DNA from: a virus
IMG/VR virus record: IMGVR_UViG_3300032116_000925
Span: 1-30,501 of that record
Reading direction: 5' to 3' (one strand)
DNA length: 30,501 bases
Shown here in pieces: positions 634-9,034 of the stretch (positions are counted from its first letter, which is position 1; every line of letters begins with the position of its first letter). The position numbers and the translations under genes were made by a program. Under the pieces are notes generated by a model. That model ran no database searches. It was not told the origin of the DNA and was given only the letters and a program-made list of their open reading frames with translations.

Positions 634-827
634 CCCCTCACCGCCTTCCACGCGGCGAGAGCCTCGCTGGCTGAAGAAAAAAAGTCGGTAGCCCAGCATT
701 CGCACTGCGCCCAGAGCCAAAAAGGCGCATTATATTTTTCGCAAATTTCGACAACCAAGCCACAGTCTAAGCAGGTCAAATTCCCCTCCTCATCCTGCGT
801 CCATTTACGCTGCGTCTGTTCCGTCAC
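630..827 (-). CDS. Lar-like zinc-ribbon protein (possible restriction alleviation)
   Basis: The GTG at 827 overlaps the upstream stop as GTGA and gives a 65-aa product; the longer in-frame extension runs through two other genes and is rejected. It has a CLDC knuckle at about residues 18-21, further cysteines in QCEC about 30 residues later, and a C-terminal helix ASEALAAWKAVRG. CxxC, then C, then a final eAixaW helix is the layout of the Lar restriction-alleviation family. Lar of the Rac prophage modulates type I restriction-modification. Here the gene lies next to a phage methyltransferase, which fits evasion of host restriction. The assignment rests on pattern only; a generic phage Zn ribbon is the alternative. 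Confidence 0.45.
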   Translation of the reverse strand: MTEQTQRKWTQDEEGNLTCLDCGLVVEICEKYNAPFWLWAQCECWATDFFSSASEALAAWKAVRG

Positions 828-985
828 CCCCTCACCGCCTTCCGCCACTCCTCGACCGTTGCAATTTTCGTATACGCCGCCGGCCACGCCCAGTCCGCCA
901 CGTTCCGGTAGACCAAGTCGATGATGTCGGCCTTCACTGTGGGCGAGGCGAGGGCGGCTTGGATGTGGAGTTGGGCGATGGTCAT
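824..985 (-). CDS. hypothetical protein, 53 aa
   Basis: ATG at 985 overlaps the stop of the helicase-methyltransferase gene as ATGA, and its own stop overlaps the Lar-like start as GTGA. The product begins MTIAQLHIQAALASPTVKAD and ends EEWRKAVRG. That end resembles the last residues of the next gene (AAWKAVRG), hinting at local duplication. Mostly helical, no Cys and no membrane span. Function unknown. Confidence 0.55.
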   Translation of the reverse strand: MTIAQLHIQAALASPTVKADIIDLVYRNVADWAWPAAYTKIATVEEWRKAVRG

Positions 986-3336
986 ACCGCCGCCTCCAGC
1001 AGCGAAAGCTGCCTGTTTGAATCTCCGCACGCATCGGCAAGGTTTCGCGCCGCGATCTCAAAGTAGCCCCGCTTGAGTTCAGTTCCGACAAACCGCCTCC
1101 CGCACTTCAGCGCAACGTATCCCTCGCTGCCGATGCCGGTAAATGGCGAAAAAATCAAGTCCCCCGGATTCGACCAAAGATGAATACACCGCTCGATAAC
1201 GTCGAGTTGCAGCGGGCAAATGTGCCGCTCGTCGTCACTGTCACGCGCCAGATCTTTATTCAGGACGTCGGTCTGGTTAATGTCCATCCACACCGGCGAG
1301 GCGTACCGCTGCCATACTGAGATCGACCAAAGCCTGTACGCTTCGCTGCCGACCGGAAACGGGTTAAAACGCGGCCACTTGCCGTTGCTGTGCGCTGGAA
1401 CCGGAACGCCTGCGTCGTAGGCTACAACGGAAGCGTCGGGCGGCTCCAGGCCAACGTACCGCTCGAACCGCTCCCCGCCTGAGGTCACCGGATCCGCAAA
1501 CTCGGCCTCGGCGTTCCACTTGCGAAATGTGATGATGTAGTCAGCCATACCTTGCCGCGATGCAGCCGAGTCGGCGCATAGCTGCTTATACAGCAGTCCG
1601 TGATTCTTGGTCCGCTGCATTTCGATCACTGGATCTTTCCAGATCGTGACGCGAGAGTGAAACGTCCAGCCCTCAGCCTCAAACTCACGGATGATGCGGC
1701 CGGGAAAGTCGCGCAGGCCAGCCGCGCCGTCGCGGCCACGATACAGCGGCAGGTCTTTGCAGTGCACCGCGCAGTTGCGGCCCGGAATAGTGATCCGGTG
1801 CAGTTCTCGAATCAGAAAGCGAAACTGCGCCATGAACTCCTCGTCGTCCTCGGTGTTGCCCATATCGGCGATTGAATCGCTGTAGATGTACAGGTTTGAG
1901 AACGGCGGACTAAACACGGACAGACCAACGGAATCGCTCGGCAGTTGCCGCGCCTTTGTTACGCAGTCGGCGTTGTACAGTGTCCATCCGCTTCCCTCGC
2001 GCTTTTCGTCTGGTAGCGTTATCACCAGCGCGTCGTCGCGAAGCTGCCTGACGCTCTCTTCCGCCATAGCGGCTGTCATTTCCTTTCTCATGGATCTAAA
2101 CTCCCTCTCCTTGCTCTCAATCGTTGCAATTAATGCGCCCTCGGTCTCGGCCTGCACGATGTGGCAAACAACCGGGCGCTGCTGGCCGAATCGCCACACG
2201 CGACGGATGGCTTGATAGTAGGACTCAAACGAATAAGACAGCCCGACAAAGGCCACCTGATTACAGTGCTGCCAGTTCATCCCAAATCCAGATAGCTGCG
2301 GTTTGCTGATAAACACCCGCAGTCTGCCGTCGGTGAAGTCGTTCAGCGTTGCCTCGCGCGCGGCCTCAGCCTGCGACCCGCGAATGTCGCGTGCCTCAGG
2401 AATCGCCTTAAGTAACGCATCGGCCTCGTAGTCCGAATAGCACCACACCAGCCACTGCCCAGGCGCTGCAACGATCTCGGCGACCTTCGCGGCTCGGTCC
2501 GCTGTCGTCCGCTTCAATTCGCGGTGAATCGCCGTCGAGGACATATCGGGAACGCGAATCAGCCGCCCGTCCGTGTCGCTGGTGATGTCGACCGCGACCG
2601 TATGCGACTCGATGCTCAGCTTCGGAAGGATGTAGCCGTCGTCGCTATAGCCTAGATCAGACGGCATCGTGACCGATACAGCCCAAGACGCCACCCACCG
2701 CCAGAAGTCCTTGGCTGCGTGCTTCTTCAGCCGATAACCGCCTGCCTTCATTGTGTCGTTCAGGAACCAGCGGGATATCATTTCATTCGAAGGCATGACA
2801 TCAAGAAACTCGGCGTGGTTGCCCAACTCAAGATGGTCATTAGGCGCTGGCGTTGCAGTGCACGCCAGCTTAAAGCGATGGCCAGTAAAAGCGTCGATGA
2901 TGGCCCGCTTTGTCTTGCCCATGTAGCTCTTGAGGATGCTGGACTCGTCGAGCACGACGCCAGCGTAATCGGAAGGGTTGAACTTGTGCAGCTTCTCGTA
3001 ATTCGTCACCTGTATTGAGTCACCGCTCGGCGCGTGCACGTGCGCCACGCCTTCAATGCCGAACTTCTGCGCCTCGCGGACCGTCTGCGCTGCTACTGCC
3101 AGCGGAGCGAGGATCAGCACCGGCCCGACGTTCTCGGCAACGTGCCGCGCCCACTCCAGTTGCATGAAGGTCTTGCCCAAGCCAGTATCGGCAAAGATGG
3201 CTGCTCGGCCACGCTTCAGCGCCCACCGGATAATGTCGGACTGAAAAGGCTTCGCCGATTGGTGGATCTGGCCGGCGTCAAATCCGGTCCTCGGCGCGTC
3301 AACGGCTTTCGTCTTCAGAAACTCCTCATATGTCAT
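982..3336 (-). CDS. SF2 (SNF2-like) helicase fused to DNA methyltransferase
   Basis: 784-aa two-domain protein. Residues about 25-430 form an SF2 helicase/ATPase: Walker A ADTGLGKT (49-56), DESS box (130-133), TATP motif III (160-163), and motif VI around YYQAIRRVWRFGQQRP (373-388), which is SNF2-like. Residues about 450-775 form an S-adenosylmethionine-dependent amino-methyltransferase in the order with the catalytic motif first: SPPF (476-479), CPLQ region (707-710), then the cofactor loop SPFTGIGSEG (730-739) and GTELK (751-755). SPP-type catalytic motifs are commonest in N4-cytosine enzymes, though N6-adenine is possible. Similar fusions occur in phages and presumably modify phage DNA during replication or recombination. 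ATGA overlaps on both sides place it in the early operon. No cognate restriction enzyme is visible. Confidence 0.9.
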   Translation of the reverse strand: MTYEEFLKTKAVDAPRTGFDAGQIHQSAKPFQSDIIRWALKRGRAAIFADTGLGKTFMQLEWARHVAENVGPVLILAPLAVAAQTVREAQKFGIEGVAHVHAPSGDSIQVTNYEKLHKFNPSDYAGVVLDESSILKSYMGKTKRAIIDAFTGHRFKLACTATPAPNDHLELGNHAEFLDVMPSNEMISRWFLNDTMKAGGYRLKKHAAKDFWRWVASWAVSVTMPSDLGYSDDGYILPKLSIESHTVAVDITSDTDGRLIRVPDMSSTAIHRELKRTTADRAAKVAEIVAAPGQWLVWCYSDYEADALLKAIPEARDIRGSQAEAAREATLNDFTDGRLRVFISKPQLSGFGMNWQHCNQVAFVGLSYSFESYYQAIRRVWRFGQQRPVVCHIVQAETEGALIATIESKEREFRSMRKEMTAAMAEESVRQLRDDALVITLPDEKREGSGWTLYNADCVTKARQLPSDSVGLSVFSPPFSNLYIYSDSIADMGNTEDDEEFMAQFRFLIRELHRITIPGRNCAVHCKDLPLYRGRDGAAGLRDFPGRIIREFEAEGWTFHSRVTIWKDPVIEMQRTKNHGLLYKQLCADSAASRQGMADYIITFRKWNAEAEFADPVTSGGERFERYVGLEPPDASVVAYDAGVPVPAHSNGKWPRFNPFPVGSEAYRLWSISVWQRYASPVWMDINQTDVLNKDLARDSDDERHICPLQLDVIERCIHLWSNPGDLIFSPFTGIGSEGYVALKCGRRFVGTELKRGYFEIAARNLADACGDSNRQLSLLEAAV

Positions 3337-4998: not shown

Positions 4999-5177
4999 CG
5001 CACCACCTCCCACTCCGCTTTCAGTTCTGCCGTGCGCCGCTCCCGCAGCAGCGCGGCCTCGTAGTTCGCCTTCGCGCGTGTGGCGATGACAAGCCATACG
5101 CCAGCACGCCCGTGCTGATGCAGAGCCAAGCCGAGGGCGCAGGCGGCGAGGACTAAGATTGCTCCGATGATTTCCAT
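4995..5177 (-). CDS. small membrane protein, 60 aa
   Basis: ATG at 5177 shares one base with the upstream stop (TAATG). The N-terminus MEIIGAILVLAACALGLAL is a single transmembrane segment with almost no charged residue in front, followed by a second moderately hydrophobic stretch and a charged cytoplasmic-type tail (RERRTAELKAEWEVVR). Small inner-membrane proteins are common in phage early regions and may act in superinfection exclusion or host takeover; no specific role can be read here. Confidence 0.6.
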   Translation of the reverse strand: MEIIGAILVLAACALGLALHQHGRAGVWLVIATRAKANYEAALLRERRTAELKAEWEVVR

Positions 5178-5629
5178 TAGGCTATCTCCTCCACCCCAAG
5201 CTGCTGAGACCGACGCGGCAGATCGTTGCCCGGCACAGCCACTATCCGCCGCCTGCTCTCAGCAACGCCAGCCGCCAGCGCCGATGACACCAAAACGCGC
5301 CGGTCATGGGCGATTGACTGGTCCGCATCCAACTGCCCCCGATCCACCGACAGCAGGCGCTCATTGCGGCTCATAATCAGCCGAGCGCCCCGCGCCACGA
5401 GCTGCGCATTGTGTTCGCTGGCCTCCGCATCAGTCAGCACGCGCAGACGGTCGCGGTCAATGGTTACCGTAATGTCCGACCGATGCGCGTGAATCAAGCC
5501 CTGCAGTTTCATCAACTGCAAATCCCAGTCGTTGCTGGTTTCGTAACGCTGCGCGAATACGGCCTCCAGCGTCTCAATCTCTAGTAGCTGGCCCTTGTCC
5601 AGCGCCGAAAAATCTAATGGATATTGCAT
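5177..5629 (-). CDS. hypothetical protein, 150 aa, downstream of RNA element copy A
   Basis: ATG at 5629 with AAGGAG at good spacing. The start lies about 20 nt downstream of the end of the GGC-repeat RNA element at 5648-5886, so this is the gene that copy A would control in cis. The product is soluble and mixed alpha/beta: an N-terminal helical part (KGQLLEIETLEAVFAQRYE), a central strand region DITVTIDRDRLRVL, and an Arg-rich C-terminus. No recognised family and no catalytic motif seen. It heads the chain of small overlapping genes running to the left edge. Confidence 0.65.
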   Translation of the reverse strand: MQYPLDFSALDKGQLLEIETLEAVFAQRYETSNDWDLQLMKLQGLIHAHRSDITVTIDRDRLRVLTDAEASEHNAQLVARGARLIMSRNERLLSVDRGQLDADQSIAHDRRVLVSSALAAGVAESRRRIVAVPGNDLPRRSQQLGVEEIA

Positions 5630-5647: not shown

Positions 5648-5886
5648 ACTGCGATACTACCCTTGCCCATGCCTCGCCACGCCGTACCAGGCCAAGCCCC
5701 GCCTTGCCATGCCTTGCCATGCCGGACCAAACCAAGCCCGCTCGTGCCCCTCGCCGAAGGTCACCAGCGGGACTGGCGTCCCGTACTGCGATACTACCCT
5801 TGCCTAGCCTCGTCATGCCTATCCTAGCCTCGCCCTGCCGCGCCACACCACGCCACGCGGAGCCCTGGCACGCCGCGCCTTGCCAT
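5648..5886 (-). repeat. GGC-pentamer RNA element, copy A
   Basis: Non-coding interval between the RAMP-like gene and the 150-aa gene, read on the minus strand. Two tracts are written in exact 5-nt steps. Tract A1 (5886 to 5792) has 19 pentamers, 12 of the form NNGGC. Tract A2 (5740 to 5655) has 17 units, one of them 6 nt, 12 containing the GGC core. Both end in AAGGG TAGTA TCGCAGT. A spacer of about 45 nt with alternative hairpins separates them. The first pentamer overlaps the stop codon of the upstream gene, and the end abuts AACAAC and the ribosome-binding site of the next gene. Open frames across it encode low-complexity Gly-Lys-Ala-Arg peptides and are not believed. Confidence 0.85.
5737..5783 (-). 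ncRNA. bistable hairpin spacer of copy A
   Basis: Minus-strand RNA can form a large hairpin from arms 5762-5771 and 5737-5746 (CCCGCTGGTG with CACGAGCGGG, one mismatch, extendable by CCT/AGG inside the loop). It can instead form a small hairpin CGGGAC-GCCA-GTCCCG at 5783-5768. The two share bases 5768-5771 and cannot coexist. Copy B has the same pair of alternatives. Confidence 0.6.
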
Positions 5887-6503
5887 CATTTAACGACCGA
5901 GCTAAACCGCCCAAAGCGCGGCCGCCAGTCGCCAATCCCTTTGATACTGCCAGCCCGCGCTAGCGCGTCTTCAACGTCGCGCCGCGTCACAATCTCTGGC
6001 AGGTACTGAATCTCAATCTCAACCGACCACGCGTCAAACCGTGGCCGCGTCCGCATAATCTTGCTCGTGCCAATCTTTGCGGGGCGCGTGTACTGATAGC
6101 GCCCGTCAAGAAAACAGCGCTTGGTTGTAGCTGGCTTGCCGTCCACGCGCAACTGGAACATTCCGTCGCAAAACACGCCAGCCTTGAATGCCGCCACCTC
6201 TTTCCGGCCAGCGCTCTGAACTAAGCACCGCGTCAGCATCTCACCATCAATGCAGATCGGCGAATCGTTCTCAAGCACGACCTTGTTTCCGTCGCGCCGA
6301 AAAATAATTGGCTCGGTCGTATAAAGACCGCCAAGCCATTCAATCGCTGCCAGCGCGTCAAATGCCGCGTCGCTCTTGGCTTTCTTGTATGCCTTCTGCG
6401 CCGAGTCAATTTCGCGCGTGAAGACGTTTCGCGGGTCGACTAAATGCCCATTGTGCAGAAGAATGGGCGCTTTGCCTGTCAGTGTCGCCTTAATTGTTTC
6501 CAT
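5886..6503 (-). CDS. phage RAMP-like protein of unknown function, 205 aa
   Basis: ATG at 6503 follows GAGGAC and the end of RNA element copy B; the stop runs into copy A. The protein belongs by pattern to a phage family of unknown function: N-terminal PILLHNGHLVDP (about 13-24), EWLGGLY (54-60), a central IMRTRPRFDAWSVEIEI (about 148-164), and C-terminal KGIGDWRPRFGRF (187-199). The last motif resembles the glycine-rich G-x-G-x-x-R-x-x-x-G-x-x loop that closes RAMP folds (Cas5, Cas6 and Cas7 proteins). The similarity is by eye only. Its position, bracketed by the two RNA elements inside the recombination operon, suggests nucleic-acid binding. An ssDNA-related recombination accessory role is the alternative. 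Confidence 0.7.
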   Translation of the reverse strand: METIKATLTGKAPILLHNGHLVDPRNVFTREIDSAQKAYKKAKSDAAFDALAAIEWLGGLYTTEPIIFRRDGNKVVLENDSPICIDGEMLTRCLVQSAGRKEVAAFKAGVFCDGMFQLRVDGKPATTKRCFLDGRYQYTRPAKIGTSKIMRTRPRFDAWSVEIEIQYLPEIVTRRDVEDALARAGSIKGIGDWRPRFGRFSSVVK

Positions 6504-6518
6504 GATGTCCTCGTTGTT

Positions 6519-6680
6519 AAATCGGTACTACCCTTGCCATGCCCCGCCTAGCCCGGCCCTGCCCCGCCGATCCCTGCCCGCAAATGCCTCTCGCGTGAAA
6601 ACCATTTGCGGGCACGGCCCGCACTGCGCTACTACCCCTGCCCTGCCTGGCCACGCCGAGCATTGCTCAGCGATGCCACG
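6519..6680 (-). repeat. GGC-pentamer RNA element, copy B
   Basis: Non-coding interval between the SSB-like gene and the RAMP-like gene, minus strand. Tract B1 (6679 to 6630) has 10 pentamers, 5 of them NNGGC, and ends AGGGG TAGTA GCGCAGT. Tract B2 (6580 to 6526) has 11 pentamers, 8 of them NNGGC, and ends AAGGG TAGTA CCG. A hairpin spacer lies between. The element ends against AACAACGAGGA and the ATG of the RAMP-like gene, the same arrangement as in copy A. Confidence 0.85.
6575..6623 (-). ncRNA. bistable hairpin spacer of copy B
   Basis: A perfect 12-bp inverted repeat (TGCCCGCAAATG at 6575-6586 and its complement at 6603-6614, 16-nt loop) overlaps a second perfect 7-bp hairpin (TGCGGGC-ACG-GCCCGCA, 6607-6623). 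Only one can form at a time. Compared with copy A, stem positions differ in a compensating way and the large loop keeps TTC followed by GCGAG-purine-GG on the minus strand. No T tract follows either hairpin. Confidence 0.65.
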
Positions 6681-6686
6681 CAATTT

Positions 6687-7097
6687 TTAGAACGGCACGT
6701 CTTGATCGCCAATCGCCGCGAACGGCGACGGCCCCGCTTCCACTTCCCGCGCCGCCGATCCACCGCCACGCGGGAACAGGCCGTTCAGCCGCACGCCGTA
6801 CTTCTCCTGCTCCTCGGCCACGACCGACGCCTGCGCGTCAGCCAGTCGCGCATTCAGCTTCCGCAGCCAGTCGCCGCCGGTGAGGTCGGCCTCGGTTGCG
6901 CCCAATGCTTCGAGACGCTTGCGCGTGTTTCCGAGCGACTTAGGCGTGAGGAACAGATTCGTGCTGCCCTGCGAGTCGTCGGCGAATCGCACTACGACCT
7001 CAAGCGCCTGCGTGCCGTTCTGCCCGAGTTCGACCTTTCGCAGTCCGACGATGCGAACGTCGTACCAGGTTTTGTCCTGTAGGCTTTGCGCGATCAT
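6687..7097 (-). CDS. SSB-like single-stranded DNA-binding protein
   Basis: 136 aa. The start overlaps the recT stop as ATGA. The N-terminal about 60 residues are strand-rich with aromatic and basic positions (DKTWYDVRIVGLRKVEL, EVVVRFADD), compatible with an OB-like fold. The C-terminus is IGDQDVPF, matching the acidic D-x-PF tip with which SSB proteins recruit partner enzymes. Together with the RecT and nuclease genes upstream this fits a phage ssDNA-binding protein. The OB fold itself is inferred; the sequence is not close to E. coli SSB. Confidence 0.6.
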   Translation of the reverse strand: MIAQSLQDKTWYDVRIVGLRKVELGQNGTQALEVVVRFADDSQGSTNLFLTPKSLGNTRKRLEALGATEADLTGGDWLRKLNARLADAQASVVAEEQEKYGVRLNGLFPRGGGSAAREVEAGPSPFAAIGDQDVPF

Positions 7098-7798
7098 TCA
7101 GCGGCCCCCTTGATCTCTGCCAGCTTGTCGGCCAATACGGTGGCGGCTCCCATGCGGGATTCGGTCTCCTCAACCACCGACTGAATCAGCGAGTCGCTGG
7201 TATCCACTGCCGCCCCGCCCGCGACCTCGGATGCGTGGAACGCGTGGAATCGTGACAGCATGCGCGCGAACAGCATCTCGTGGCCGAACTGGTCATAGGT
7301 ACCGGGCTTGTTGTCCTTCCCCCGCGAACGCGCCACCAGACCGCTCCGCGTCGCGTCGTCGAGCGTGTACCGCATCCGCAGCGGTTTGCCAGCTTCGTCG
7401 GTCATGGGCTCGCTCATGAAATAGAAGGCATATTCGCTTGCCTTCTCCGTGTGCTCGACGACCTTCCAGTTGTACCCGCCGCGCCGCAGCAAAACCGCGC
7501 GGCCCTTGTAATGGAGCGCCGGAATCAGCATCCCGCCCTGCGGGATCAAGTGAATGAACTGAAGCGACTGCGCCTCGTTGAATCCGTAGTCGCGACCATA
7601 CATATACTTCAGCTCGATCTGCGGCGCCGGGATGCCCAGCGCCTGCGCCCGCCTCCCCGCCTCGAAGGCGTCGATCCGCAATTGATCGGCGCGGCTCTTG
7701 AGGGTCGCGTCGGTGATGTCATCCAGTAGCGACCGCTTCGGCTGCTCCGGCGCGGCAGCAGGTTGCGCCGCCTGGATCTGTTCTGTGAGTGTGCTCAT
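7094..7798 (-). CDS. recT: RecT-family single-strand annealing protein
   Basis: 234 aa with AAGGAG ahead of the ATG. Features of the RecT core include FIHLIPQGGMLIPALHYKG (about residues 81-99), GGYNWKVVEH, and ARSRGKDNKPGTYDQFGHEM before a conserved FARMLSRF. The family pairs complementary ssDNA and works with a 5'-3' exonuclease, here the gene directly upstream. The C-terminus is Ala/Glu-rich and variable as usual. The downstream SSB-like gene completes a Red-like recombination set acting on replicating phage DNA in the cytoplasm. Confidence 0.85.
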   Translation of the reverse strand: MSTLTEQIQAAQPAAAPEQPKRSLLDDITDATLKSRADQLRIDAFEAGRRAQALGIPAPQIELKYMYGRDYGFNEAQSLQFIHLIPQGGMLIPALHYKGRAVLLRRGGYNWKVVEHTEKASEYAFYFMSEPMTDEAGKPLRMRYTLDDATRSGLVARSRGKDNKPGTYDQFGHEMLFARMLSRFHAFHASEVAGGAAVDTSDSLIQSVVEETESRMGAATVLADKLAEIKGAAE

Positions 7799-7817
7799 TT
7801 ATTACTCCTTTTCCCCG

Positions 7818-8738
7818 TCACGCCGGGAACACGCGGAACGGACGGCTCACGCTCGGCTTCACGACCTTCGCGTAGATGTCCGGGTAAAATTTCTTCAACG
7901 CAACGGTATCCACCCGCTGCGAAACCTGCGGCTTGAACGAAATCCGGTACCCCGGCGCCACCCCGCCTGGTGCGTCCCCGATCATGGCCGCCGCGTCGGC
8001 CTTCAGCGCCTCCATGGCCTCCTCGGCCTCGTCGCGAACGTCGCGCAGGGCGAGATACTCGGCGGCGATACTGCCAAGGCCCGCGATGGTCTCGGCGTCC
8101 TCGTCCACGTCGACACGCTCGAGTAAGGCCGCGCCTTGACACGAGTGACGGTACTCGCACTTCCCACACCGCTTGTCGGTCGCCGGCAGACGATCTGGCT
8201 CCCCGCAGCCGCCGACCATGGCCCAAAATTGAACCGCCATCTCGCGCACCAATTCGTAGGCCGCCGGATCAAACGCGACCTCAAACGTCTCGAACCGCCA
8301 GTTGCTCGGTTCCAGCACCGCGAACGCGCCCCACCGATACCCGCTGAGACCCATATACCACTGGATCTGCAACTGGTAGCTGATCGGTAATCCGTCGCGC
8401 ATGAACGCCCGGAACGCCCGTTCGTTGGCGGTTTTGCACTCGAGCACGCCGGGCCCGCGCTCGTCGCCAACGATCATCCTATCCATGGCCCCAGCTTGCC
8501 AGTCCTCCTCACCAAAGCGTGAACCAGTGCGGCGAACTTTCCGGCCCGTGCGCTCCTGGTACTCCTCGACGATCAATGGCTCAAGCTTGGTGCCGCGGAT
8601 CAGGTGGCCGCGGAACTCAACCTCGTAGTCGGGCTGGATGCCGCGCTTCTGATACCACAACTTGCGGGCGCAGCCGTAGGGCGGGGCGTTGACGATGTGG
8701 CCTAGGTCGCTGCCGCCGATGAATCTAGTCCTGTCCAT
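7818..8738 (-). CDS. YqaJ/Cas4-like PD-(D/E)XK exonuclease with four cysteines
   Basis: 306 aa from the ATG at 8738, which has a strong AGGAGG; a GTG about 22 codons upstream is possible but lacks a site as good. N-terminal GGSDLGHIV is the usual start of the phage YqaJ exonuclease fold. Catalytic residues seen: D86 (GAMDRM), E100 and K102 (LECK), then YQLQIQWYM (121-129). C23 plus C191-x2-C194-x5-C200 match the four-cysteine iron-sulphur signature of Cas4- and AddB-type nucleases. It would resect dsDNA ends to feed RecT. The C-terminal quarter is a helical DEAEEAMEALKADAA segment followed by FKPQVSQRVD. Confidence 0.85.
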   Translation of the reverse strand: MDRTRFIGGSDLGHIVNAPPYGCARKLWYQKRGIQPDYEVEFRGHLIRGTKLEPLIVEEYQERTGRKVRRTGSRFGEEDWQAGAMDRMIVGDERGPGVLECKTANERAFRAFMRDGLPISYQLQIQWYMGLSGYRWGAFAVLEPSNWRFETFEVAFDPAAYELVREMAVQFWAMVGGCGEPDRLPATDKRCGKCEYRHSCQGAALLERVDVDEDAETIAGLGSIAAEYLALRDVRDEAEEAMEALKADAAAMIGDAPGGVAPGYRISFKPQVSQRVDTVALKKFYPDIYAKVVKPSVSRPFRVFPA

Positions 8739-8757
8739 ATTCCTCCTCGTTTCATTT

Positions 8758-8781
8758 GCCCCCGGCTGCTCAACCGGGGGC
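8758..8781 (-). other. GC-rich hairpin upstream of the exonuclease gene
   Basis: Perfect 8-bp inverted repeat GCCCCCGG / CCGGGGGC with an 8-nt loop, about 20 nt before the AGGAGG of the exonuclease gene. No T tract follows on either strand, so it is not a typical intrinsic terminator. It could set mRNA stability or separate expression of the two genes. Confidence 0.55.
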
Positions 8782-8797
8782 TCAGTAGTCGGGTCGT

Positions 8798-9034
8798 TTA
8801 CCACTTGGTGTTTTTCTTTGTGGGGTTCCTCCTGATTAAAATACCGTCCATGGGACGGCTGGCAGTGACGCCAAGGGACCGGCCAGCGGAATCCACGCCG
8901 CCTCTCGTCCGGGTATAATCCGACTTTGAGATCTGGCCGGCCACCTCGCGCCACTGTTTTTCTTGCGCCACCTTGGCCGCGCCGATGGCGATGTAGTGGT
9001 CAATCATCGCCCGTGCTGTTTCGAATGAATCCAT
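8798..9034 (-). CDS. hypothetical protein, 78 aa
   Basis: ATG at 9034 with GGAGGG six bases upstream is preferred over ATG 9085 in the same frame, which has no comparable site and lies inside a hairpin. The product starts MDSFETARAMIDHYIAIGAA and has a basic C-terminus (RRNPTKKNTKW). The first half is a helix with a W; the second is polar and probably flexible. No family recognised. It lies just upstream of the exonuclease and downstream of a structured leader. Confidence 0.55.
   Translation of the reverse strand: MDSFETARAMIDHYIAIGAAKVAQEKQWREVAGQISKSDYTRTRGGVDSAGRSLGVTASRPMDGILIRRNPTKKNTKW

Follow-up and report, generated by a model that had tools for sequence, protein, structure and literature searches.

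The locus described here, from a tailed phage that has not been cultivated, is almost certainly a VIPR system, a reading to which we assign a probability of about 0.95. VIPR is an RNA-guided DNA-recognition system that was first described in a 2026 preprint (PMC13142463). It combines a protein, Vipr, with vrRNAs of 9-16 GGY/NN repeats and a 3' tail; its NN letters base-pair with DNA, skipping 1 nt each time, and the skipped position is usually a wobble base (PMC13142463). The window, by which we mean the whole 30,501-nucleotide stretch of DNA that was analysed, fits this system on gene, fold, array and NN variability.

A first-pass annotation of the sequence had proposed that two intervals on the minus strand, 6680-6519 and 5886-5648, share one plan, and this plan is borne out. 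Each interval holds two NNGGC-type pentamer tracts that end in AGGG(G)TAGTA. In all there are four GGY/NN tracts of 5-nt phase, which share a conserved terminal block, and a 205-aa gene separates the two intervals (Table 1). The GGGTAGTA blocks were located at 6637, 6533, 5799 and 5662, and TAGTANCGCAGT at 6634, 5796 and 5659. The annotated numbers of GGC cores (about 12, 12, 5 and 8) are upheld. Units without GGC often carry GGT instead, which agrees with the published GGY rule; tract B also contains one GGA unit. The NN letters of tract D read TT TT CC AT AA AT AA GG TT CT AC GT GA AT, with a 1-base slip (ATGGGCAA) ahead of the final unit, near the 3' end.

Table 1. Tracts, tails and genes of the locus, in window coordinates
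Feature	Position	Strand	Description
Tract A	6635..6680	-	about 9 pentamers, degenerate toward the 5' end; no difference from the sister phages checked
Tail A	6575..6634	-	TAGTAGCGCAGT, then a 12-bp hairpin (6614-6575)
Tract B	6536..6580	-	9-unit putative guide; NN = CG AG TC GG AG CG TA GG AT
Tract B terminal block	6526..6535	-	AAGGGTAGTA; no hairpin after it
vipr gene	5886..6503	-	205 aa; predicted RAMP fold; phrog_4652; C-terminal GIGDWRPRFGRF glycine-rich loop
Tract C	5797..5884	-	about 18 units immediately 3' of the vipr stop codon; near-invariant in sister phages
Tail C	5733..5796	-	TAGTATCGCAGT and hairpin; plan as tail A, stem sequence changed
Tract D	5665..5740	-	about 14-15 units; NN letters replaced in sister phages
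Tract D terminal block	5648..5664	-	AAGGGTAGTATCGCAGT; no hairpin; just 5' of the ribosome-binding site of the next gene
ORF	5177..5629	-	150 aa; directly after the second element; candidate vap gene by position only

The pentamer-tract pattern is far above chance expectation. GGY recurs every 5 nt without a break for up to 14 units, and the best stretch of 12 units scores 12/12, while dinucleotide shuffles of the region or the window reach runs of at most 4-5 and 12-unit scores of at most 6-7. In the remainder of the window the corresponding maxima are 3 and 5. Set against the published description, 9-16 GGY/NN pentamers do lie beside vipr, with tract C slightly longer and tract A partly degenerate. 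Where the published system has an invariable structured 3' tail, tracts A and C are followed by a shared tail with a hairpin, and tracts B and D by a short block alone, directly ahead of a ribosome-binding site. The two hairpin tails have TAGTANCGCAGT in common and differ in the sequence of their stems. An Rfam search of the window returned no match, and nothing was found when the region was compared with phages by blastn.

On the strength of its sequence similarity, the 205-aa protein is a Vipr homologue. It matches the structure entry 'SUSP1 Vipr protein' (PDB 36pp_D) with an E-value of 4.3e-22 over 199 residues (phmmer), in an alignment that takes in the GxGDWRPRFGRFS end, and it matches phrog_4652 with an E-value of 5.7e-35. 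Across 46 homologues the residues R153, W159, R194 and G198 are invariant. An AlphaFold model of the protein has a pLDDT of 96, and its Foldseek matches in the PDB are CRISPR RAMPs (Csm, Cas6, type VII and type IV), with probabilities of up to 1.00; the protein is thus predicted to have a RAMP fold with a glycine-rich loop. Given this homology and fold model, the tracts fit the vrRNAs of a VIPR system. The first-pass annotation had named a RAMP-like neighbour among the candidate binders of the tracts, and this proposal appears to have been right: the neighbour is the array-linked Vipr homologue itself.

The surrounding genes were also compared with those of known systems. No vap gene, the accessory gene of VIPR systems, was recognised among them. 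The ORF at 5177-5629 could be placed in no family, and no resemblance was detected between it and the gene that follows vipr in VSe11 or LESphi2. Neighbouring ORFs show no similarity to the genes that adjoin other vipr genes, and for the vipr neighbour of a related Felixounavirus no homologue was detected here. No CRISPR repeat/spacer array is present in the two intervals, and in place of a multi-gene cas operon the tested neighbours are recombination or helicase genes, or have no match. Upstream of vipr, at 7094-8954 (minus strand), lie a YqaJ/RecE-like exonuclease and a weak RecT-like match, and at 982-3336 (minus strand) the window encodes a 784-aa protein in which a helicase domain is fused to an N6/N4 DNA methylase domain.

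Independent support for the link between arrays and Vipr comes from a scan that was blind to proteins. We searched for eight GGCNN units, and at least 120 stretches matched. Among the matches listed, a vipr homologue was found in the fetched stretch of 84/120 contigs identified by the array alone, against 1/87 array-free contigs; the median distance from vipr to array was 40 nt, and the two were on the same strand in 82 of these 84. An independent PHROG profile, run on whole records, found vipr in 39/50, compared with 0/13 array-free records and 0/14 control genomes. Among the array matches that lack vipr are simple uniform repeats and short fragments. A search with the array alone therefore leads to vipr.

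These contigs also bear on what had been named as grounds for discarding the element, namely a lack of conserved phasing or of the terminal block in homologues. The phasing is conserved, the phased array being widespread. The AGGGTAGTA block is confined to this phage group and conserved in close relatives only, because tails are lineage-specific; matches to the AGGGTAGTANCGCAGT pattern beyond the sister phages proved unrelated. Other contigs show further variety. L021, L026 and L134 carry many arrays in succession, about twelve in a row in L134, and in L021 the successive arrays are separated by near-identical hairpin spacers. A hairpin resembling a tRNA T-arm (GGTTCGANTCC) lies just 3' of arrays in L023 (3804, plus strand), L038 (4458 and 4578, minus strand) and L126 (3089, minus strand), with positions counted on the strand named, and ARAGORN calls an odd tRNA in L126. 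Array tails may involve tRNA mimicry and processing by tRNA enzymes.

We decoded guide B as NNxNNx under the published 1-nt-skip rule and searched with its 8-unit core (16 bases), which has exact matches in 19 viral contigs and one bacterial genome. Of these 20 matches, 15 fall in one motif of primase-helicase proteins and represent nine independent lineages. In all 15 the longest open frame is antisense, the skip falls on the wobble base and the frame encodes IPYRLP[ED]L; most of the nine lineages have a TOPRIM-like EGE motif downstream. In one lineage (L195, L197, L199, L201, L204, L209 and L210) all nine units of guide B are matched, 18/18 bases, so that the match covers the full array from the first GGC. 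Representative genes at these sites are primase-helicases by PHROGs, on contigs that carry phage terminase or structural genes. Twelve homologues that were fetched by protein similarity and not by pattern point the same way: the best 1-skip match lies on the IPYRLPEL motif in about 7, reaches up to 16/18, and averages 12.5/18; with other skips the mean is 10.9-11.3, and with shuffled guides it is 11.5. We consider it likely, judging from these sequence matches, that guide B is directed at the IPYRLPEL codons in primase-helicase genes of rival phages. One contig with the guide B target, L198, has, at about 400-820 and 822-1724 (both minus strand), a distant Vipr-like ORF of its own and an apparent 5-nt-phased array with CGC cores instead of GGC.

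It is also conceivable, if rather unlikely, that the locus is a VIPR system and yet the primase-helicase match of guide B is coincidental, the true target being unsampled. The 19 matches in viral contigs equal the chance expectation for 16 bases, so it is their clustering in a single motif that carries the target claim, and of the guides tested guide B alone gives such a convergent motif. The phages have no established link through host or ecology. Set against this are nine independent lineages that share one conserved motif with every skip at the wobble base, and the 18/18 lineage. The matches of guides C and D and of guide B of the sister phages are, by contrast, scattered, with no shared motif and no preferred wobble phase. 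For guides C and D, target scans of viral and genome contigs gave only matches that failed on extension, including two 20-base genome matches of guide D with few further units matched, and translated motif searches gave no match. In 396 genomes of one phylum guide B has one match and a reversed-pattern control two, which is chance level. No guide B site lies in the window itself within three mismatches. Across the collected loci, guide-target searches failed to distinguish the 1-nt skip from the alternatives, in a test that had no power to do so.

The sister phages show how the tracts vary. They have an identical tract A and an almost unchanged tract C, while in tracts B and D the NN letters are different and the phase is kept. 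Between tract B and its counterpart in the sister phage L011, 12/18 NN bases differ compared with 1/27 GGY bases, and the flanks differ at 0/60 and 3/60 bases; across the sister phages the flanks of tract B are 57-60/60 identical. As in the published system, NN is hypervariable here and GGY is conserved. New NN letters in the same GGC phase, within near-identical flanks, are what is expected of exchanged guides.

This exchange also bears on an analogy drawn in the first-pass annotation. TRAP, the trp RNA-binding attenuation protein, binds as a multimer to triplets spaced 2 nt apart. The 2-nt spacers here resemble TRAP sites, and both vipr and the next gene have tracts immediately upstream, as might suit cis regulation of vipr and the recombination operon through a TRAP-like site or another site of RNA binding. 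We regard this as very improbable: sister phages differ by wholesale replacement of the NN letters with the phase kept, which cis regulation does not need, some contigs have many arrays in a row, and the predicted fold of the partner protein is that of a RAMP. The array belongs with a RAMP-family Vipr and its NN letters form a putative guide; a replication element was rejected along with the TRAP analogy. Least credible of all is an origin in low complexity or tandem slippage, or a role as a recombination hotspot to which a RecT-like protein binds, in spite of the exonuclease and weak RecT match in the operon: arrays track vipr in diverse contigs, and adjacent units are identical in 8.3% of cases against 7.3% expected from random pairs (287 arrays, other contigs), hardly more alike than random, so the phase is kept with free NN letters and slippage was rejected too. 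The first-pass interpretation is partly supported overall, since its preference for a non-coding, phased RNA over selection for protein appears correct for what is still a putative RNA, and so, by analogy, does its multimeric protein with one unit bound per subunit.

Under the VIPR reading, and by extension from the published system, vrRNAs would be transcribed from the tracts and Vipr would oligomerise on them, one subunit per GGY/NN pentamer. The NN dinucleotides would stay available for pairing with double-stranded DNA, in the gapped register NNxNNx, and binding would block transcription of the target. For guide B this would mean binding the antisense strand at the IPYRLPEL codons of the primase-helicase genes of competing phages, the skipped base being the wobble base. 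More tentatively, the paired layout might join a conserved tract with a hairpin tail to an exchangeable tract with a minimal tail, the exchangeable guides being aimed at highly conserved primase-helicase codons, where one guide could cover many unrelated phages. A predicted target in a conserved replication-gene motif, with the skip at the wobble base, does suggest broad-range guides. VIPR is so far known from one 2026 preprint, and arrays that lead to vipr without reference to the protein add independent sequence evidence. Furthermore, sister phages with exchanged guides in near-identical flanks offer a compact locus in which guide acquisition by VIPR can be tested.

The closest known counterparts are the VIPR systems of Escherichia phage SUSP1 and of a P. 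fulva prophage (PMC13142463; PDB 36pp). Like these, the locus has a Vipr homologue, intergenic GGY/NN arrays of 9 or more units beside vipr, a 3' tail with predicted structure (after tracts A and C), hypervariable NN letters and, for guide B, a decoded target, here predicted, in genes of rival phages with the skip at the wobble base. It differs in that Vipr sequence identity to relatives in isolated phages is only about 30%, the tail sequence AGGGTAGTANCGCAGT is specific to this group, and the tracts are paired with a hairpin tail only on the first. Compared with TRAP, the partner here is a RAMP by predicted fold, and the letters between triplets would carry specificity. The RAMP complexes of class 1 CRISPR (Cas7/Csm3, types III, IV and VII) share the predicted RAMP fold and glycine-rich loop, and a periodic RNA-binding filament is expected. 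Unlike class 1 CRISPR, the locus has no CRISPR repeats or spacers in the two intervals and no other cas genes among the tested neighbours, its period is 5 nt as opposed to 6 nt, and its code would be noncontiguous.
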